A stretch of 51,391 bases of DNA from a virus (IMGVR_UViG_3300020442_000908:1-51391), one strand, 5' to 3'. Positions 35,222-42,038 are shown, counted from the first letter of the stretch. Notes: generated by a model not told the origin, from the sequence alone. Program-made: numbers and translations.

Positions 35222-35236
35222 AAAGTTATATATAAC
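35221..35236. promoter_or_regulatory. GTT-N6-AAC palindrome beside terminator
   Basis: AAAAGTTATATATAAC; GTTATATATAAC is a perfect 12-base palindrome. It lies between the last base of the small membrane-protein gene and the leftward terminator at 35236-35267. Confidence 0.45.
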
Positions 35237-35267
35237 AAAAAAACCCCCACCAAATTAATGGCGGGGG
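35236..35267 (-). terminator. Rho-independent terminator ending the leftward MoxR/VWA module
   Basis: On the minus strand CCCCCGCC-ATTAATTT-GGTGGGGG (one mismatch) followed by seven T. It stops transcripts from the 35.4-41.2 kb module before they enter the replication unit. Confidence 0.8.
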
Positions 35268-35355
35268 CTTAGTTCGGGTGATATGTGGTGACTATGAAAG
35301 TCGCTGGCACACCACATACCTTGCGGCATCCCGATATGCCGTCAGGAACGCCAGC
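35268..35355 (-). ncRNA. Structured 3' region of the leftward module (candidate RNA element)
   Basis: Between the last leftward stop codon and the terminator. On the minus strand, GACGGCAT...ATGCCG-type arms around 35328-35347 form one hairpin. GGTATGTGGT pairs with ACCACATATC (10 bp, one G-U) around 35281-35320, enclosing a nested GACT-TTCAT-AGTC stem. It contains TATGTGGTGTGCC, which is complementary to the leader RNA at 41220-41232. It could be a 3' stability element or a trans-pairing site. Confidence 0.4.
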
Positions 35356-35553
35356 TTATTCATCCAACCGATACTCGGCTGATTGACTAGTCTGATAAAC
35401 CTGTTCCGCCTTCGGGTGGTTGCGCGATACAAAATTACACGCATCCGATAATCCGCTAGGGCTTTCTGCTTCTATTAAAAAACGTGTTCGCTCCCGTGCC
35501 TCAATCTTGGTAATGCTGTAGGTACGGTTTTTCTTTATGACATTTGCCATCAT
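35356..35553 (-). CDS. Hypothetical 65-residue protein, last gene of leftward module
   Basis: GGAGC precedes tandem ATG codons (35553 and 35550). The product is a small alpha/beta protein (YSITKIEARERTRFLIEAESPSGLSDACNFVSRNHPKAEQVYQTS), strand-strand-helix-strand, resembling phage proteins of unknown role. It overlaps the upstream gene by four bases. Confidence 0.72.
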   Translation of the reverse strand: MMANVIKKNRTYSITKIEARERTRFLIEAESPSGLSDACNFVSRNHPKAEQVYQTSQSAEYRLDE

Positions 35554-35753
35554 GTTCTTGCTCCATGAAAAATAGATATTACTTTGAAGTCCTTATTCAA
35601 CTTTGCGACAACTGTTCTGTCTTTGTTGATAAGGGATATGTCTTCGGTTGATGCGTCGATAGATAAATCAACTATGTTTCTTGCGGATAAGCCCTGCGAA
35701 TTGCAGAACCTAACATATTCAGACCTAGCTGTTTCAAAAAAACTGTCAGTCAT
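35550..35753 (-). CDS. Hypothetical 67-residue protein
   Basis: The start overlaps the upstream membrane-protein stop and the end overlaps the next gene, so the three are co-translated. An N-terminal helix (SFFETARSEYVRFCNSQG) is followed by short strands (EDISLINKDRTVVAKLNKDFKVISI). No family was recognised. Confidence 0.7.
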   Translation of the reverse strand: MTDSFFETARSEYVRFCNSQGLSARNIVDLSIDASTEDISLINKDRTVVAKLNKDFKVISIFHGART

Positions 35754-35913
35754 TCATCCACCTATCTAACTCTATAAACAATATTATCAGCCCGCCCGTT
35801 AGAAATATCAAGCCCGCGAGATACGGCATCCAATGGTCAACAGCCGCCCTCGAAAACATCCAGCCAAGCAACAGGCACATTGTTCCGAATACAATTCTCT
35901 CTAATCTAGTCAT
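35746..35913 (-). CDS. 55-residue two-span membrane protein
   Basis: AGGAG precedes the ATG at 35913. Two membrane helices (IVFGTMCLLLGWMF and LAGLIFLTGGLIILFIEL) with short Arg/Asp flanks form a hairpin with both ends probably cytoplasmic. It overlaps the next start by eight bases. It is directly downstream of a hairpin/palindrome cassette. A function such as superinfection exclusion or envelope modification is only a guess. Confidence 0.7.
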   Translation of the reverse strand: MTRLERIVFGTMCLLLGWMFSRAAVDHWMPYLAGLIFLTGGLIILFIELDRWMND

Positions 35914-35925
35914 ACTTCTCTCCTG

Positions 35926-35947
35926 AAAAAGTTATATGTAACAAAAA
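35926..35947. promoter_or_regulatory. GTT-N6-AAC palindrome in cassette
   Basis: The core GTTATATGTAAC (35931-35942) lies in A-rich flanks between the T-run of the terminator and the ribosome site of the 55-residue membrane-protein gene. Confidence 0.5.
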
Positions 35948-35968
35948 GGTAGGGGCTTGCGCCCCCAC
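35943..35968 (-). terminator. Hairpin terminator after the 309-residue gene
   Basis: Plus-strand arms GGGGC-TTGC-GCCCC (35952-35965) extended by GT/AC; on the minus strand it is followed by five T. It begins one base after the stop codon. Confidence 0.75.
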
Positions 35969-36898
35969 TTAGAAGCTGTCCATCAGCGTATCGACAACCG
36001 ACTTCTTGAGCCTGCGGTCAAGCAACTGGCTGGCAGTCTTCGCCCCAGTATCACCCTCACCGAAAGCCTTGGTCACTTTGCTGTGACCAGTGTGTGTAAC
36101 CAAATACCCGACCTTGTAATCAAGCTGGGTCTTGCTGACACCGACAACATGAGCCTTGTAGCAAGCGCGGTCAGCTTCATCGACATACGGATGGTCTACC
36201 TTCTTGGCATGGGTCACAAGGTAATCCTTGCCACCAACCCGCACATTGTGTAGGTCGTTGCGCTTTCTGTGAAGATAGTCCAACCCGACCTTGACGATAA
36301 AGCCAGAGGCTTGAACCTTGTCCTTGCGGGTCAGGTCAACTTGCTGGCAATAACCCTCGACCACATCGGTAACTTGGTAGTCATCAGCGCTGTGCCACCT
36401 TTTGCCAGTGATGATTGTCTCATTCTCTGGCGCATGGCAATCCAGATATGCGTTGTAATCTTTCTTGCCAAAGGCAAACAGGACACCTTCACCGATATAT
36501 TCGCTTTCTCTGGTGGTAACCCTGAAGCGGCTGAAGGCTTTGTTAAAATCCTTTTTAAACACGTTCTCATTTGACTTGAAGTAATCTTCGAGGGACATGC
36601 GTTGCGTCTTCTGAAACCTACCAGCAGTTTCGTCGGCCTGAATTTTCTCACGGGCAGATGTAATAATCTCTATGAGACTATTGAGGTACGAAAGCATACC
36701 GTCTGTGGTGTTGACGCCAAAGGTATCGTCAAGATTGTCGATATAATCTGAGACATCCACATCACTGTTGTATCTGGCAGACCTTATCCCGCGCTTTGCC
36801 AACTCACGCATTACACAGGTCGGGATGTTGTACCGTTTGCGTAGGCGTTGTATTTCCTCACGCAATTCAGTGCTGTAAAGCTTTTCATAAGTATCCAT
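35969..36898 (-). CDS. Hypothetical 309-residue protein
   Basis: Starts at the ATG at 36898 with AGGAGAAAA upstream. An N-terminal charged helical region (residues 1-110) precedes mixed strands with many Lys/Asp/His (GEGVLFAFGKKDYNAYLDCHAPENETIITGKRWHSADDYQV, then VGLDYLHRKRNDLHNVRVGGKDYLVTHAKKVDHPYVDEA). No motif was recognised. It has its own terminator and, upstream, a perfect palindrome, so it is expressed as a separate cassette within the MoxR/VWA module. Confidence 0.82.
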   Translation of the reverse strand: MDTYEKLYSTELREEIQRLRKRYNIPTCVMRELAKRGIRSARYNSDVDVSDYIDNLDDTFGVNTTDGMLSYLNSLIEIITSAREKIQADETAGRFQKTQRMSLEDYFKSNENVFKKDFNKAFSRFRVTTRESEYIGEGVLFAFGKKDYNAYLDCHAPENETIITGKRWHSADDYQVTDVVEGYCQQVDLTRKDKVQASGFIVKVGLDYLHRKRNDLHNVRVGGKDYLVTHAKKVDHPYVDEADRACYKAHVVGVSKTQLDYKVGYLVTHTGHSKVTKAFGEGDTGAKTASQLLDRRLKKSVVDTLMDSF

Positions 36899-36914
36899 AG
36901 TTTTCTCCTGATTG

Positions 36915-36934
36915 AAAAGTTAGATGTAACTTTT
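36915..36934. promoter_or_regulatory. Best copy of the GTT-N6-AAC palindrome
   Basis: AAAAGTTAGATGTAACTTTT has perfect eight-base arms around a four-base centre. It is placed just before the AATCAGGAG ribosome site of the 309-residue gene and after the terminator of the upstream gene. Confidence 0.6.
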
Positions 36935-36943
36935 GTTACACCT

Positions 36944-36966
36944 GAAAAGGTGGGGCAGTACCCCAC
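36944..36966 (-). terminator. Hairpin terminator after the 58-residue gene
   Basis: GTGGGG-CAGTA-CCCCAC (36950-36966), followed on the minus strand by CTTTT. Eight bases after the stop codon. Confidence 0.72.
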
Positions 36967-36974
36967 TAATTGTG

Positions 36975-37151
36975 TTATTCCTGTTTGATAAAATTGCACT
37001 CCCAATCTTTAGCCGCGTCCCAGCCGATTGCATCGCGCAGTAACTCAAAGGCTTCCTCAGTGGCCTCGTCTTCATCACTAGCCTCTACTTCATAGGCGTA
37101 AAAGGTTTCGCTGATTGGTTGCAAATGCACCGTGTATGTTTTCTTTTTCAT
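36975..37151 (-). CDS. 58-residue acidic hypothetical protein
   Basis: AGGAGCAAG precedes the ATG at 37151. An N-terminal strand (KKKTYTVHLQPISETFYAYEVEA) is followed by an acidic helix (EDEATEEAFELLRDAIGWDAAKDW) and a short strand, the strand-helix-strand shape of many small phage modulators. It has its own terminator on each side. It lies directly downstream of the VWA/metallopeptidase gene. Confidence 0.7.
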   Translation of the reverse strand: MKKKTYTVHLQPISETFYAYEVEASDEDEATEEAFELLRDAIGWDAAKDWECNFIKQE

Positions 37152-37175
37152 AATCTTGCTCCTAATTTGATTTGA

Positions 37176-37201
37176 AAAGGTAGGGGGCTTGCGCCCCCCA
37201 C
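37176..37201 (-). terminator. Hairpin terminator after the VWA/HExxH gene
   Basis: GGGGGC-TTGC-GCCCCC (37183-37198) extended by GT/AC; CTTTT follows on the minus strand. One base after the stop codon. Confidence 0.77.
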
Positions 37202-37202
37202 G

Positions 37203-38333
37203 TTAGTCCAGCTTGACGACCTCGCCAAAGGGAGCCTCGTCTGTGCCTGTGCTGACCCACAAGGTGGGGTAGCTAGGCGGTGCTGGAAAGTCATTGACGT
37301 ACAGGTCAGTGAAGTAGATAAAGCTATCAACATCCAGACCATGTTCATCAATGTAGTCGAATACAGGGGTGACCAGTGTGCCGCCCCTGCCTTTGATGTC
37401 GAGCGCATCAATGACCTCGCCCTGACCAAAGTGATGCACCTCGCGCACCCGTGTGTCGCAGACAATCACGGTCACGCTCTCTGGTGACAACTCTTCGGTC
37501 ACCGCATTGAGTTCGCTGACAAACTGTGTCAGTTCGCTCTGGCTCAGTGACGCACTGCTGTCAATGCCGACCACGATATGACCGCATCCGATACGGTCAA
37601 TGCTGGGCATAATCATACGCCCGTGGTGGAAGTGCTTGCGATTGACCCGCTGGTAAGTGACACCATCGGGCTGTTCGCCGCCAGCAAATCGGCGCAGTAC
37701 ATCGCACCAATCAACCTTGGGTTGCATCAACTCGTTGATGTGGTCAGCAAGTGCATCAGGCAAGTCACCGCCTGCCTCGCGTACCCTGTCAGCCGCCGCA
37801 ATGATGCGCTGAGAAATGTCAGCTTCCATCGCGTCAACCTGTTCCGCAGACAAAGGCGAACCATCGTCATTGGTAGGCTCAGTAACCTCACCCCATGGGC
37901 AAGGCTTCTTGACTGTGCCGCTATCGTCTTGCTCCTGCTTGAGCAAGTCATAGATGCGCTCTGCACTCATGCCGTTGTATTGCGGGTCATGCAGACCGCC
38001 ATCGGGCATCGTGCCGATACCAGCCTCAATCAATATGCCATTGATTGCGTAGTCTGTTGCGATATTCCAAAGCTTGGCATCGCGCTCACCCCGCCGTAGG
38101 TGGTGGCAGAAAGCAACGTGCAAAGCTTCGTGACAATTCACGAACAGCAATTCATCTTCGGTCAGCCCGTCAACGAATACACTGTCGAACAACACACACT
38201 TGCCATCGGTTGCCATCGTCTGGGTCTGCCCCGTGGATGACATGCTAGGCAAGCCCATCAACACCGCGCCGTAGAAAGGTGCGCGGATAAGAGCCTGTGT
38301 GCGGGAACGTGCAATTTTGAGTTCTGTGTCCAT
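37203..38333 (-). CDS. DUF2201-type metallopeptidase-like / VWA protein
   Basis: 376 residues. The N-terminal half has a zinc site H68-E-A-L-H72 with a following FCHHLRRGERDAKLWNIATDYAIN, the DUF2201 putative metallopeptidase signature. The C-terminal half is a von Willebrand factor A domain with an intact metal site D258-x-S260-x-S262 (VVGIDSSASLSQ), then a GTLVTPVFDYI threonine segment and FTDLY. In cellular genomes such proteins are paired with MoxR-type AAA+ ATPases, and one is encoded immediately upstream here. It probably acts as the client-binding or protease partner. Its target in the host is unknown. Confidence 0.9.
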   Translation of the reverse strand: MDTELKIARSRTQALIRAPFYGAVLMGLPSMSSTGQTQTMATDGKCVLFDSVFVDGLTEDELLFVNCHEALHVAFCHHLRRGERDAKLWNIATDYAINGILIEAGIGTMPDGGLHDPQYNGMSAERIYDLLKQEQDDSGTVKKPCPWGEVTEPTNDDGSPLSAEQVDAMEADISQRIIAAADRVREAGGDLPDALADHINELMQPKVDWCDVLRRFAGGEQPDGVTYQRVNRKHFHHGRMIMPSIDRIGCGHIVVGIDSSASLSQSELTQFVSELNAVTEELSPESVTVIVCDTRVREVHHFGQGEVIDALDIKGRGGTLVTPVFDYIDEHGLDVDSFIYFTDLYVNDFPAPPSYPTLWVSTGTDEAPFGEVVKLD

Positions 38334-38345
38334 AATCTTCTCCTG

Positions 38346-38366
38346 AAAAAGTTACATGAAACAAAA
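38346..38366. promoter_or_regulatory. GTT-N6-AAC element in cassette before VWA gene
   Basis: GTTACATGAAAC (38351-38362) in A-rich flanks, between the upstream terminator T-run and the AGGAGAAG ribosome site of the VWA gene. The centre is less symmetric than in the other copies. Confidence 0.45.
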
Positions 38367-38388
38367 AGGTGGGGTGGCGAACCCCCAC
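38364..38388 (-). terminator. Hairpin terminator after the MoxR gene
   Basis: GTGGGGT-GGCGA-ACCCC(C)AC (38369-38388), one bulged C; CTTTTTG follows on the minus strand. Four bases after the MoxR stop. Confidence 0.72.
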
Positions 38389-38392
38389 AATT

Positions 38393-39409
38393 TTAGTTGA
38401 GCAAGTCAACCCCGCCATTCAAAGCCCAATCACGAACCGCATTGGCCTGCTTCAAATCAGGGTCACGCTTGAGCGCATCCCTCATAACGAAAGCAACCAT
38501 TTCTTTTTGCGGTATCCTGTCAAGGTACGCACATAGCGGCGTAGCATTGTCAGGCTTCAGGCTGGCTGATATGCCAGCGCAAAGCGCATACAGGACATCA
38601 CTTTCTTCAGGCAGTCTAGTGCCATCAGGGTCAGCGATAATATCCTTGATTGCTGGGGCTTTTGTGGTGAGTTTTTTGTAGGCTAGGAAGTCCGCGCCCA
38701 CACCGTCACCAACTGTGCCAAAAAGCGCATGTTGAAAAGCACCTTCGGACAAGTCAAAGCCTAGCAATGTGCTGACCTTGTCCCAACTTCTGGGGCTGGG
38801 GCAAGCCTTCGCATCGCGGTCAAACTTGTGCAGATTGTCAGGCCGCGCCCGTAGGTAGCCAATGACAAGCGGGTCACGATTGTTAGCCGCAAAGTACCCG
38901 ACGACATCCTCTAGGTCGCTTTCGATTTGCAACCATGTCAGTCTGTCGCGTAGGTGTGTCGGCATGGTGTTCGTGCCAGACCTGTCCTTGGCTGGGTTAC
39001 CAGCACAGACGATTGCGACATTGTCAGGCAAGACATGACCGCCAAGGCTCCGCTCATTGATAATCTGGGCGGCGATATTCTGGTTCGTGACGGGAGCCTG
39101 TGGCAGTTCGTCAAAAAACAGGACATACTTTTTGGCTGGGTCAAAGTCAAACCAATCGGGTGTCAGGTGTATCATTGCGCTGTTGTCAGCGTTGGGGATA
39201 CGCCAGCCCGATACCTCAGTGAAGTCACGGTCTGTCAGACGCTGGTCAATGAAGACCGCATCCAATTCGTCCGCAACTTGTCGGACTGCGCTGGTCTTGC
39301 CGCCGCCTGCGCTACCTTCGAGGTAACAGGTGACGTACTGACCGCCGTGCGCTGACCACTGGTCGAGGCATGAAGCTTTGATGATATTGGTAGCTGTAGA
39401 TAGTCTCAT
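38393..39409 (-). CDS. MoxR-type AAA+ ATPase
   Basis: 338 residues from the ATG at 39409 (AGGAGAAAA upstream; the in-frame ATG at 39451 lies in the leader palindrome). Walker A GSAGGGKTS (32-40), Walker B VLFFDELPQ (96-104), sensor 1 IVCAGNPA, then T-H-L-R-D-R-L with candidate arginine finger. This layout matches the MoxR/RavA-like chaperone ATPases that remodel clients with a VWA partner, here the next gene. The two are separated by a terminator and a palindrome rather than simply coupled, so their ratio may be controlled. Confidence 0.9.
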   Translation of the reverse strand: MRLSTATNIIKASCLDQWSAHGGQYVTCYLEGSAGGGKTSAVRQVADELDAVFIDQRLTDRDFTEVSGWRIPNADNSAMIHLTPDWFDFDPAKKYVLFFDELPQAPVTNQNIAAQIINERSLGGHVLPDNVAIVCAGNPAKDRSGTNTMPTHLRDRLTWLQIESDLEDVVGYFAANNRDPLVIGYLRARPDNLHKFDRDAKACPSPRSWDKVSTLLGFDLSEGAFQHALFGTVGDGVGADFLAYKKLTTKAPAIKDIIADPDGTRLPEESDVLYALCAGISASLKPDNATPLCAYLDRIPQKEMVAFVMRDALKRDPDLKQANAVRDWALNGGVDLLN

Positions 39410-39425
39410 AATTTTCTCCTGATTG

Positions 39426-39453
39426 AAAAAGTTACATGCAACAATTTGCATGT
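39426..39453. promoter_or_regulatory. GTT-N6-AAC element extended into a second inverted repeat
   Basis: GTTACATGCAAC (39431-39442) overlaps ACATGCAA-CAAT-TTGCATGT (39434-39453), a perfect eight-base inverted repeat. It sits in the MoxR leader between terminator and ribosome site. Confidence 0.5.
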
Positions 39454-39454
39454 G

Positions 39455-39475
39455 AAAAGGCGGGGCAAGCCCCGC
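39455..39475 (-). terminator. Hairpin terminator after the 36-residue gene
   Basis: GCGGGGC-AA-GCCCCGC (39460-39475), CTTTT on the minus strand. Five bases after the stop codon. Confidence 0.75.
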
Positions 39476-39480
39476 AAGCG

Positions 39481-39591
39481 TTACTTGTTTTTGATTTGCT
39501 GGATAATCTCTTTACCAATCCCGATAATGAGATACCCAAGGAAAACCACTGGGAACAAATAACCCCAGATAAGTACGGTAAAATCTACCAT
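39481..39591 (-). CDS. 36-residue single-span membrane protein
   Basis: Reads VDFTVLIWGYLFPVVFLGYL then IIGIGKEIIQQIKNK: one long membrane helix followed by a basic tail, so the C-terminus is probably cytoplasmic. It starts three bases after the upstream gene stop, with only a weak ribosome site (CTAAGAA), so it probably depends on translation of that gene. It lies just upstream of the MoxR gene. Confidence 0.6.
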   Translation of the reverse strand: MVDFTVLIWGYLFPVVFLGYLIIGIGKEIIQQIKNK

Positions 39592-39594
39592 TTC

Positions 39595-39759
39595 TTAGTT
39601 CCTTCCATGCCAATACATACCAGCGCACCCGCCAAGTATTCCTGCCACACCAATCAACCCAGTGACTGTGTTGATAACTGGGTCACCATGTGGAATGACC
39701 AGCACGGTGAGCAGGCTGATAGCCAAGCCCATAGCCGTTGTAAATATGCTTACAAACAT
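39595..39759 (-). CDS. 54-residue two-span membrane protein
   Basis: The start at 39759 is chosen because AGGAGG lies six bases upstream; the ATG at 39765 is too close to it. Two membrane helices (VSIFTTAMGLAISLLTVLVIP and VINTVTGLIGVAGILGGCAGMYW) with a short H-G-D loop. It is followed three bases later by another membrane peptide gene. The pair resembles small phage envelope proteins, but no function can be assigned. Confidence 0.68.
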   Translation of the reverse strand: MFVSIFTTAMGLAISLLTVLVIPHGDPVINTVTGLIGVAGILGGCAGMYWHGRN

Positions 39760-39781
39760 TTTCATCCTCCTGATTTGATAG

Positions 39782-39804
39782 AAAAGGTGGGGCTTGCGCC
39801 CCAC
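39782..39804 (-). terminator. Hairpin terminator after the 96-residue gene
   Basis: Perfect GTGGGGC-TTGC-GCCCCAC (39787-39804), CTTTTC on the minus strand. Three bases after the stop codon. Confidence 0.78.
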
Positions 39805-39807
39805 AAG

Positions 39808-40098
39808 TTAGCCTGCCTGATATGCTAATTCAGCTTGAGTTATTTTTTGCTGTATCAATTCAGCAAGGGCTACTTCCTCTCGTACTAATTCAGCAAGAGC
39901 CTTTGCTTCTTTTAGTGTGTTGAATGTCCCAAGAACACCGCACTCGTTTGTGTGCTTTTCAACGGTCGGGTTCCTTTTGATGCAACATAAATTCCAGACA
40001 GTGTCTGAGCCGCTAAAATTTTGCTTCCACGAATCTACATAAAAAGCGCCGCACTCAGATGTGTAAACGCCTGTGTCTAGTTTTTTCCATTTTAACAT
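39808..40098 (-). CDS. Hypothetical 96-residue protein
   Basis: AGGAG precedes the ATG at 40098. An N-terminal beta half has Cys and Trp (YTSECGAFYVDSWKQNFSGSDTVWNLCCIKRN). A C-terminal amphipathic helix with a repeated A-E-L pattern (AKALAELVREEVALAELIQQKITQAELAY) looks like a coiled coil. No family was recognised. Confidence 0.75.
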   Translation of the reverse strand: MLKWKKLDTGVYTSECGAFYVDSWKQNFSGSDTVWNLCCIKRNPTVEKHTNECGVLGTFNTLKEAKALAELVREEVALAELIQQKITQAELAYQAG

Positions 40099-40116
40099 AA
40101 TAGTTCTCCTGATTGA

Positions 40117-40142
40117 TAAAAGGTGGGGTCGCTACCCCCCAC
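40117..40142 (-). terminator. Hairpin terminator after the 213-residue gene
   Basis: GTGGGGT-CGCT-ACCCC with an extended CCAC end (40123-40142), CTTTT on the minus strand. Two bases after the stop codon. Confidence 0.72.
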
Positions 40143-40144
40143 GA

Positions 40145-40786
40145 TTAAGCGGTAACCTTGGCGAACACTTCGTTCACTTCGGCGTTGTCAGCCACGGCCT
40201 TCTCAGCGGCCTTGGCTTCGCGCTCCGCGTCAGCAAGGCGAGCCTTACATTCGGCGGCAAACTTCTCAATGTCAGCGACTGATTTGAGAACAGCGGCTTC
40301 GGTGGATACCTTGCCAGTCTTAGTGAGCCGCCCGACAGCCTTGTCGAGAAGCTTGTCATAGGCTGACTTTGCACCGTCACCCGAAAAGAAAGCTTTAAGC
40401 TTGGCTTCACTGGTGACCTCATTGGCCTCGAAAAACTCAGCAACTTGGGTCACCGTTGCGTTGCTGTTCAGCGACAATTCGCGGATAAGGTCAACGCTGT
40501 GGCGGTAGAAGTATTTGGCCTGTGAAGCACTCACCCCAGCATTTTCCAACTGACGCTTTATCTCACCCGATACCGTGGTATCGAAAAGGTTTTTCGCGCC
40601 AGCTTTCTTGTTGCGTGGAAAGCTTTTCGGGTTTGCAATTTCAACAGCAATGGCCGCATAGCTTTCTAGGCGAGCCGTGTTGTTTTGCGCCGTGTTGTCT
40701 GCGTTTTTAGCTTTGCGGCGAGCAATCGCTTTCTCGCTAGTGACAACAGACTTAACGACATCTTGGTTCAAATTTACTTTTTCCAT
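40145..40786 (-). CDS. Hypothetical Ala/Lys-rich helical protein
   Basis: 213 residues from the ATG at 40786 (AGGAGATATATT upstream; an in-frame ATG at 40870 lies in the previous gene). It is almost entirely helical, rich in Ala, Lys, Glu and Ser, with a basic N-terminal third (KAIARRKAKNADNT) and a coiled-coil-like C-terminus (FAAECKARLADAEREAKAAEKAVADNAEVNEVF). It may be a nucleoid- or scaffold-like protein; no known family is recognised. Confidence 0.78.
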   Translation of the reverse strand: MEKVNLNQDVVKSVVTSEKAIARRKAKNADNTAQNNTARLESYAAIAVEIANPKSFPRNKKAGAKNLFDTTVSGEIKRQLENAGVSASQAKYFYRHSVDLIRELSLNSNATVTQVAEFFEANEVTSEAKLKAFFSGDGAKSAYDKLLDKAVGRLTKTGKVSTEAAVLKSVADIEKFAAECKARLADAEREAKAAEKAVADNAEVNEVFAKVTA

Positions 40787-40810
40787 AATATATCTCCTGA
40801 TTTGAATAGA

Positions 40811-40831
40811 AAAGGCGGGTGGCGAACCCGC
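40811..40831 (-). terminator. Hairpin terminator after the 107-residue gene
   Basis: GCGGGT-GGCGA-ACCCGC (40815-40831), CCTTTTC on the minus strand. Four bases after the stop codon. Confidence 0.73.
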
Positions 40832-40835
40832 AAAA

Positions 40836-41159
40836 TTACTCGCCTTCTGCTGAGTACCAATCGCGAGCATCTATCCAGACGCCTTGGTCACAGCCAGATG
40901 TTAGGCTGACCGCATATTGCACATGGTCACGCTGGACAATACGCAAGTTTTTGCCCAGTGCTTGGCAGATACCGTTGACCCGCTCGCGGGTTGTTACGGT
41001 AGGCCAGCCAGCCAGTGAAACCTCTAGGCCGTTGTCAGTCTTGCGAGCAATCTCGTTGCCGTGCAACCAGACAGAGCGTCCATCAGTTTCAGTGTTTTTG
41101 ATTTTCAAGCTCTCACCATTGGCGAAAGCGTTTGCGATTTTCTGTGTAATTTTTCTCAT
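40836..41159 (-). CDS. Hypothetical 107-residue protein, first gene of leftward module
   Basis: The start at 41159 is chosen for AGGAGACTACACT upstream; an ATG at 41201 lies in the leader terminator. Beta-rich N-terminal part (KIKNTETDGRSVWLHGNEIARK), then a helix with RERVNGICQALG, and strands (LRIVQRDHVQYAVSL). It is strongly reminiscent of small phage modulators near early promoters, but no family was recognised. It is placed just behind a transcription terminator, so its expression requires read-through or another promoter. Confidence 0.75.
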   Translation of the reverse strand: MRKITQKIANAFANGESLKIKNTETDGRSVWLHGNEIARKTDNGLEVSLAGWPTVTTRERVNGICQALGKNLRIVQRDHVQYAVSLTSGCDQGVWIDARDWYSAEGE

Positions 41160-41176
41160 AGTGTAGTCTCCTGAAA

Positions 41177-41389
41177 ATAAAAAGGTGGGGACAAGCCCCA
41201 CGTTTCAAAACAGAGAATTTATGTGGTGTGCCGCGAGTGACCCTCTCATGGTTTCAACGGGGTTCCTTAGTCCCGTGGGTTCTTAGCGGTTGGGTGGTTG
41301 GCTGTTTGTCAGCGTCCTAGGTTACCCTTGTTATGGTCGCTTTGTTTGCCGCTAGCGTGGCGGGGCAACAAGGTGTGTCCCTGTTGTTA
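41177..41389 (-). ncRNA. Candidate small RNA or attenuated leader of the leftward module
   Basis: On the minus strand a strong promoter (41395-41423) is followed by about 210 nt with no long reading frame, then a terminator at 41179-41201. Internal inverted repeats predict hairpins: a TTGTTGCC/GGCAAACAA arm pair around 41342-41372 and an ACGGG/CCCGT pair around 41255-41275. The only visible frame near its end is a 14-codon peptide beginning MRGSLAAHH, without a good ribosome site. It may be a free sRNA or a leader controlling read-through. Confidence 0.5.
41179..41201 (-). terminator. Terminator between leader and first gene of leftward module
   Basis: Perfect GTGGGG-ACAAG-CCCCAC (41185-41201) followed on the minus strand by CCTTTTT. 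There is no upstream gene for it to serve, so it must act on the leader transcript. Confidence 0.75.
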
Positions 41390-41394
41390 AGGTG

Positions 41395-41423
41395 AATATG
41401 GGGGCAATCGCTACACATGTCAA
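41395..41423 (-). promoter_or_regulatory. Sigma70-like promoter of leftward module
   Basis: Minus strand TTGACA (41423-41418), 17-bp spacer, CATATT (41400-41395). The consensus -35 with ideal spacing makes it one of the strongest promoter candidates in the window. Confidence 0.65.
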
Positions 41424-41451: not shown

Positions 41452-41463
41452 GTTGCATGTAAC
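41452..41463. promoter_or_regulatory. GTT-N6-AAC palindrome between divergent promoters
   Basis: GTTGCATGTAAC lies five bases upstream of the rightward -35 and about 29 bases upstream of the leftward -35. It is well placed for an operator or activator site controlling both directions. Confidence 0.55.
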
Positions 41464-41558: not shown

Positions 41559-42038
41559 ATGACAGATAAGGACAAGGGTAAGGGTAAGCCCTACCTGAAG
41601 GTGGTAAGGGATACAGACAGGCTCACAGCCAAACAGGAAAGCTTTGCCCAGAAGGTAGCGGCAGGCTCCATTCTGTCGGATGCATACAGGGAAAGCTATG
41701 CGGCAGAAAACATGGCAGACAAGACGGTTTGGTCTGAGGCGTGCAGGCTTGCTCAGAACCCCAAGGTCGCCACAAGGATTAAAGCTATTCAGGCCGATAT
41801 GGAAGCCGACCATCGCACTAGAACGGCTAGACGGGAAGAATACGTTTTGAAACGGCTTCAGGAAGAGGCTGAAGGGGCTGAGACAGACGGGGCAAGAGTT
41901 CGCGCACTGGAATTACTGGGCAAGACGGTCGGCATATTTACCGACAGGGTCGAGGTCGAGCAGGACACAGACAAGACAGCGGAAGAATTAGAGGCAGACC
42001 TAGAGCGCAGATTATCAGCCTTGCTGGGCAGGGACTAA
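41559..42038 (+). CDS. Terminase small subunit
   Basis: 159 residues from the ATG at 41559, with GCGGGG upstream; the frame is open back to 41469 but without a start signal. The N-terminus is basic (TDKDKGKGK), then the small-terminase DNA-binding region LTAKQESFAQKVAAGSILSDAYRESY...VWSEACRLAQNPKVATRIKAI. The C-terminal part is an acidic helix (EQDTDKTAEELEADLERRLSALLG) for contact with the large subunit. It recognises viral DNA for packaging. Unusually, it is separated from the large terminase by about 1.1 kb with little coding content. Confidence 0.88.
   Translation: MTDKDKGKGKPYLKVVRDTDRLTAKQESFAQKVAAGSILSDAYRESYAAENMADKTVWSEACRLAQNPKVATRIKAIQADMEADHRTRTARREEYVLKRLQEEAEGAETDGARVRALELLGKTVGIFTDRVEVEQDTDKTAEELEADLERRLSALLGRD

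Follow-up and report, generated by a model that had tools for sequence, protein, structure and literature searches.

A phage operon with a GC-rich hairpin at every non-overlapping gene junction, probably an array of exchangeable single-gene cassettes

Phages are known to gain genes as units that end in a terminator-like hairpin (morons, or gene-plus-terminator units), and in HK022 a transcript that continues past terminator-like hairpins starts with the put RNA, a pair of hairpins. Here we describe a leftward operon with a GC-rich hairpin at each non-overlapping gene junction in IMGVR_UViG_3300020442_000908:1-51391 (G000), a whole viral record of 51,391 nucleotides from an uncultured marine phage, hereafter the window, with a terminase (Terminase_6C), a portal protein and an open reading frame of 2986 amino acids. 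Unlike morons, its array has one operon promoter and one seam sequence, with no promoter identified for each unit; its leader is predicted to have two hairpins at the 5' end, a likeness to put RNA in layout. In prophages, hammerhead ribozymes flank single genes (Perreault et al. 2011, PMC3088659); these too are RNA elements between the genes of an operon, with a proposed role in cutting it into messages for single genes, and predicted ones take up this slot in relatives of the present phage, whereas the window and its close group are without a detected hammerhead and have in that slot a hairpin and CCTTT(T), incapable of self-cleavage. The SAS/ESAS elements of Cluster K mycobacteriophages (PMC3203893) are also inverted repeats found at many junctions and conserved between phages, with a consensus that varies by subgroup, but they are scattered over the genome and carry GGGATAGGAGCCC at the start site of the downstream gene, to which they are tied; the window hairpins, with the consensus TCAGGAGA, lie in a single operon and track the upstream gene. 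Ribozyme-flanked phage genes, repeated junction elements and gene-terminator units are therefore already known; in the open-access literature we did not find a description of any operon with each separate gene bounded by a hairpin seam and genes exchanged there. We propose that this operon is probably an array of exchangeable single-gene cassettes whose hairpins form or protect the 3' ends of single-gene messages.

Nine GC-rich hairpins on the minus strand make up the array, which lies within a single leftward operon (35949-41201) and has a hairpin at every non-overlapping junction. The original prediction had placed all nine, including the ninth, which terminates the 5' leader; the other eight start 0-8 nucleotides past a stop codon, where 1-8 had been given. 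Behind each hairpin follow a C and four or five T, an AT-rich stretch, (A)GGAG and an ATG, which bears out the predicted order of AT-rich leader, AGGAG and next ATG and also the T-runs, although these are short. The cassettes had been called near-identical, which overstates the case: loops and stems vary, and one stem reads GCGGGT..ACCCGC. That nearly every gene or gene pair forms a cassette of its own holds for the array junctions but not for the overlapping genes I, J and K, which have no hairpins between them; the contrast drawn with normally overlapping phage genes is seen within the window, the rest of which has genes that overlap or abut. A survey of the whole window covered predicted genes of at least 40 amino acids, a limit below which the possible gene D2 falls (36 amino acids, upstream of the hairpin at 39475). 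It found a GC hairpin no more than 12 nucleotides past the stop in 7 of 8 array genes versus 0 of 70 others, and shuffled downstream regions of the array gave a mean of 0.08 of 8 genes with such a hairpin. Chance is therefore excluded for the stop-proximal hairpins. A separate, strong, ordinary terminator (35270-35241) stands at the operon end, beyond the array.

The same operon was found in three viral contigs (L001, L002 and L003), in which the ATPase gene E has 94-96% identity, and a fragment, L100, is a second copy of the L002-type operon start. The features of the window are listed here with their state in these relatives and in the more distant L060; d is the d'Aubenton Carafa terminator score.

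41395..41423, minus strand: promoter-like site TTGACA-17-CATATT, driving the leftward operon; arrangement also in L001, L002, L003 and L060
41202..41390, minus strand: operon 5' leader RNA; blocks of it conserved in L001, L002/L100 and L003, and in L060 at the 5' end
41366..41386, minus strand: leader hairpin 1, of the CAACAGG-GACACA-CCTTGTTG type; loop similar across relatives, stem completely different
41338..41363, minus strand: leader hairpin 2, CCGC-CACGCTA-GCGG plus AAACAAAGCG; block CGCTAGCGGYAAACAAAGCG common to five phages
41185..41201, minus strand: hairpin closing the leader, ahead of gene A; d = -13.6
40836..41159, minus strand: gene A, PF23790 Kyano_Gp96; before B in the window, after B in L003
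40815..40831, minus strand: hairpin after A
40145..40786, minus strand: gene B, conserved across the wider group of phages; predicted helical fold, function unassigned
40123..40142, minus strand: hairpin after B; loop region GGTAGCG retained in four of four genomes regardless of the following gene
39808..40098, minus strand: gene C, not in L001-L003
39787..39804, minus strand: hairpin after C
39595..39759, minus strand: gene D1, small membrane-type protein
39481..39591, minus strand: possible gene D2
39460..39475, minus strand: hairpin after D2
38393..39409, minus strand: gene E, ATPase (phrog_1297)
38369..38388, minus strand: hairpin after E; in six distant relatives this slot has a hairpin without a T-run
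37203..38333, minus strand: gene F, DUF2201 putative metallopeptidase/VWA-like (PF13203, PF09967; phrog_1314)
37180..37201, minus strand: hairpin after F
36975..37151, minus strand: gene G, not in L001-L003; its gain or loss left an exact joint
36950..36966, minus strand: hairpin after G
35969..36898, minus strand: gene H, conserved in the close group
35949..35968, minus strand: hairpin after H; d = +4.7
35356..35913, minus strand: overlapping genes I, J and K
35241..35270, minus strand: strong operon-end terminator with a tail of seven T; d = +54.5
39431..39442, unstranded: palindrome GTTACATGCAAC in the leader of E; further copies at 38351, 36919, 35931 and 35225, and at 41452 upstream of the promoter

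Over the four genomes we counted 34 hairpins of this design. At nearly every non-overlapping junction of L001-L003 the hairpin is followed by CCTTT or more, an AT-rich stretch, usually TCAGGAG, and an ATG. Genes B, E, F, H and I form a core common to all four, and J and K are present in the window, L002 and L003 (the L001 contig stops just past I); the remaining gene content differs among all four genomes, C and G being found in the window only. In the comparison with related phages that the original prediction had proposed, the hairpins are thus conserved in three relatives, and gene content and order vary. Scans with the B, F and H proteins yielded only L100 as an additional relative. Matches to the cassette consensus in L092-L094 were rejected as one or a few terminator-like sites with no array, and viral contigs matching the leader block (L107, L108) as chance matches within a glycine-rich coding stretch.

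Each of the 34 junctions was then divided at the seam, and the halves were compared between genomes using 5000 permutations. Where the upstream gene was the same and the downstream gene different, hairpin identity was 0.78, versus 0.69 when permuted (3 of 5000 as high), and with the leader hairpin dropped it was 0.835 (0 of 5000); where only the downstream gene was the same it was 0.65. Leader identity tracked the downstream gene (0.82 vs 0.59 permuted, 0 of 5000). The comparison thus indicates that the hairpin goes with the upstream gene and the ribosome-binding leader with the downstream gene. In two cases of gene gain or loss the joint falls precisely at CCTTTT: the L001 F-H joint equals the F-G joint of the window through CCTTTTCA and from CCTTTTCA onward matches G-H, and the left part of the L001 B-D joint matches B-C of the window, the right part C-D. 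These alignments show at least two gains or losses of genes that were joined at the hairpin/CCTTT(T) seam. Given hairpins that track the upstream gene, leaders that track the downstream gene and joints exact to the base, the moving unit is therefore leader, gene, stop and hairpin. The cassette accretion that had been offered as one option is supported accordingly by the differing gene content and order of four related phages and by joints that fall on the seam.

The unrelated genes C and X2, the latter of L001, have in common their last coding bases, the stop codon and most of the hairpin (39787-39830; L001:9005-9040), and exchange can therefore extend slightly inside a gene. Homology between the two, suggested by 26 nucleotides of common gene end and hairpin, received no support from blastp and was rejected; the permutation test was repeated without assuming it. 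An integron gene-cassette array was likewise rejected, because the junctions, on inspection, have a CCTTT(T) seam and not a GTTRRRY core at every boundary (an integrase was not separately searched for).

Pairing in the stems appears to be maintained. All 204 of the counted outer stem pairs of the 34 hairpins in four genomes are standard, against 54-62% in controls with slid partners, a count that leans high because the stems were chosen as hairpins. At the second stem pair, T-A occurs 21 times, C-G 12 times and T-G once. In L002, five hairpins with orthologues in the other genomes, those behind B, E, F, H and M, have C-G in place of T-A, both arms having changed, yet retain their gene-specific loops; within genomes the stems are homogenised, GCG occurring in 8 of 9 in L002 and GTG in 8 of 8 in L003. 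Paired changes of the arms with loops kept argue against simple copying of one hairpin over others; they favour a selected stem or a factor by which the stem is read.

More distant relatives, retrieved via the terminase, hold homologues of B, E and F in unchanged order. A core-motif scan of these genomes gave candidate hammerheads with a GUC cut site in L031, L040, L044/L045, L060, L061, L062 (two), L068, L069 and L070, while shuffled sequence totalling 1.48 Mb (one strand, mononucleotide shuffles) contained no match; three other matches, with GTT or TTA, and one in L068 with GTA are doubtful. Candidates with an intact core matched Rfam Hammerhead_3 in L060, L031, L040 and L068 (E-values 6e-6 to 1.3e-5) and in L044 (1e-3), all below the gathering score of 48.5, and type I candidates preserve core and pairing despite different stems. 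Wherever an ATG was found, the predicted ribozyme lies 18-39 nucleotides ahead of it, which is the slot of the window hairpins. The L031, L044/L045, L068 and L040 candidates have a hairpin a few nucleotides past the stop and the GUC a few nucleotides past that hairpin, so that cleavage would leave an upstream message ending in a hairpin. The hairpin of the E-F junction is retained without a T-run in L031, L058, L061, L062, L069 and L070. What much of the group has in common is therefore a hairpin where the upstream gene ends, rather than a terminator.

No hammerhead (CUGANGA and GAAA core with three stems) was found in the array of the window, L001, L002, L003 or L100, the core scan having omitted L100; Rfam at the gathering threshold gave nothing in the window, and with E-values up to 5 nothing meaningful in the array. 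Just before the first hairpin, CTCTG..TTGAAAC (41202-41217, minus strand), present in the window and L001, resembles the flanks of the L060 type III hammerhead and is possibly the remnant of a lost ribozyme. The relatives also contain a Mu-gpT-DE RNA (RF03012; L031:17661-17713, L056:8978-9031, L069:17732-17784, L076:19021-19067) that precedes a gene, probably for the capsid, lying downstream of the terminase region; a consensus stretch of this RNA was not found in the window.

Formation or protection of 3' ends is favoured because relatives share gene-end hairpins, some with predicted ribozyme cut sites behind them and some without a T-run. In this proposal a cassette would consist of an AT-rich leader with AGGAG, one gene or overlapping group, a stop, a GC hairpin 0-8 nucleotides on and the CCTTT(T) seam. 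The hairpin would form and guard the 3' end of the upstream gene's message. That end would arise where polymerase partly terminates at the short U-run, where a nuclease cuts the AU-rich spacer, or in both ways, and the hairpin may then block 3' exonucleases. The transcript would so be resolved into single-gene messages, each with its own leader. A ribosome finishing a few nucleotides upstream may mask the hairpin, and most polymerases would then continue without a dedicated antiterminator. Stabilization of upstream messages by terminator features has been measured (PMC11696848). In E. coli, a terminator 5 bp past a translated stop fell from about 90% to below 10% efficiency, and uncoupling translation abolished this repression (PMC4824070); a dedicated antiterminator therefore need not be assumed, and if coupling holds in the host, translation of the upstream gene would always mask a hairpin 0-8 nucleotides past its stop. 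RNA processing at the hairpins, another option of the original prediction, is thus favoured on indirect grounds, as predicted hammerheads of relatives occupy the slot and some would cut a few nucleotides past such a hairpin.

Several points weigh against this proposal. All 34 hairpins are followed by CTTT or more, as terminators would also be, and the scores used to judge them are calibrated on E. coli. The candidate ribozymes belong to relatives rather than to the clade of the window, and the type I candidates that were searched (L061, L062, L070) match no Rfam ribozyme model at E-values up to 5. The permutation tests rest on few lineages, four genomes and the fragment L100 carrying the array, and both 3'-end formation and ribosome masking are steps that we infer.

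The best-surviving alternative, although unlikely, is that processive antitermination must override the hairpins, which would be intrinsic attenuators, the conserved two-hairpin leader serving as a put-like 5' element in cis or as the site at which a phage factor loads. The promoter is followed immediately by the two leader hairpins, the first with a stem replaced wholesale between the window, L001 and L060 and the second, with CGCTAGCGGYAAACAAAGCG, nearly invariant across five phages, and a hairpin ends the leader in all four array genomes. The two hairpins are clear in the window, L001 and L060 but weak in L002/L003 (L002 folds weakly into them), the whole leader folds no better than shuffles (z = -0.74), and L060 pairs the same 5' element with a predicted hammerhead before gene B. 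Terminator scores also speak against this reading. On a scale calibrated on E. coli, d was below zero for 31 of 34 hairpins, including 8 of 9 in the window, compared with +54 to +64 for the operon-end terminators of these genomes and +29 to +36 for three known E. coli/lambda terminators. The stable GC hairpin of an intrinsic terminator is thus present, but a U-tract sufficient for a positive score is lacking in those 31; the T-run is only three long at 5 of 9 junctions in L002 and 5 of 8 in L003. The label of terminator is accordingly weak for the array hairpins, and partial termination is possible. Stepwise attenuation requiring antitermination, as originally suggested, is weakened by these scores and by the E/F hairpins that lack a T-run in six relatives.

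A wider claim combines three parts: a plug-in array with a universal hairpin/CCTTT seam, a switch in this clade from intergenic self-cleaving ribozymes to hairpins in co-evolution with a trans-acting factor, and read-through controlled by the conserved leader RNA. Taken jointly these seem quite improbable; the idea of a trans-acting factor is based on the shift of nearly all stems of one phage together at pair 2. If true, the universal seam would make each gene an independent unit of RNA and of recombination.

It is more doubtful again that the hairpins act on translation, blocking coupling or re-initiation between neighbours and keeping each ribosome-binding site free. A leader hairpin of this kind is found at T7 gene 10, and the order of hairpin, AU-rich stretch and AGGAG, with a strong AGGAG of its own for nearly each gene, resembles such leaders; the hairpin, however, tracks the upstream gene and not the leader, which is unexpected for a 5' leader element. 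Least probable is that hairpins and palindromes are mainly recombination joints, kept for gene exchange with little effect as RNA: joints falling exactly on the seam, gene content varying in all four genomes and the homogenised stems of L002 and L003 agree with it, but the stem-preserving paired changes beside gene-specific loops point to selection on an RNA stem rather than copying, strand and position directly past the stop are constant, and a predicted self-cleaving RNA fills the slot in relatives.

Our preferred reading, of cassettes with hairpin-formed or hairpin-protected ends, suggests how the genes of a phage could share one transcript and yet stay independent and exchangeable. In mosaic phage genomes the position of the joints is usually hard to tell, as is the way in which a new gene enters an operon without disturbing its neighbours; here the joint is legible to the base and doubles as an RNA element. 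As the ribozymes of relatives lie in the same place, one phage group would have two solutions to the problem of keeping the genes of a transcript apart, and a link of RNA processing with gene exchange can thus be tested directly.

Gene B had no match among 50,697 phage records, and the named phages HTVC027P, 023Pt_psg01, DSL-LC04 and CRP-7 were set aside as uninformative; a structure search with its helical model gave no PDB match below an E-value of 0.7. A small-terminase gene is likely to diverge from the promoter-like site of the operon, given an ATG near 41559 and a position before the large terminase.

Within the leader, a candidate peptide, MRGSLAAHHINSLF (41203-41250, minus strand), ends 3 nucleotides ahead of the first hairpin. 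The leader of L001 contains an open reading frame of 51 amino acids with a good ribosome-binding site and the C-terminus SAHHIIL, ending 9 nucleotides ahead of its first hairpin, and frames similar to this end (VAHHIFP/VAHYIFSLN) occur in L003/L002; a leader peptide could gate the first hairpin through translation. The L002 and L003 leaders (L002:1150-1200, L003:5700-5760) have a CCCGUAAAAACGGG hairpin and then UUGAAAC/UUGAGAC, resembling the 3' part of some CRISPR repeats, which is probably a coincidence.

Variants of the palindrome GTTACATGTAAC lie at 41452-41463, 39431-39442, 38351-38362, 36919-36930, 35931-35942 and 35225-35236; in the window, L001, L002 and L003 they precede the promoter and recur in several, but not all, of the cassette leaders. 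Another palindrome, TTGTAC-N4-GTACAA, mostly intergenic, occurs in L045, L047, L058, L062, L069 and L070, and the palindromes are possibly a clade-specific, stoperator-like operator. Between gene K and the operon-end terminator (35290-35350, minus strand), GCTGGC..GCCAGC is conserved in the window, L002 and L003 and possibly represents a structured 3' untranslated region or a small RNA.

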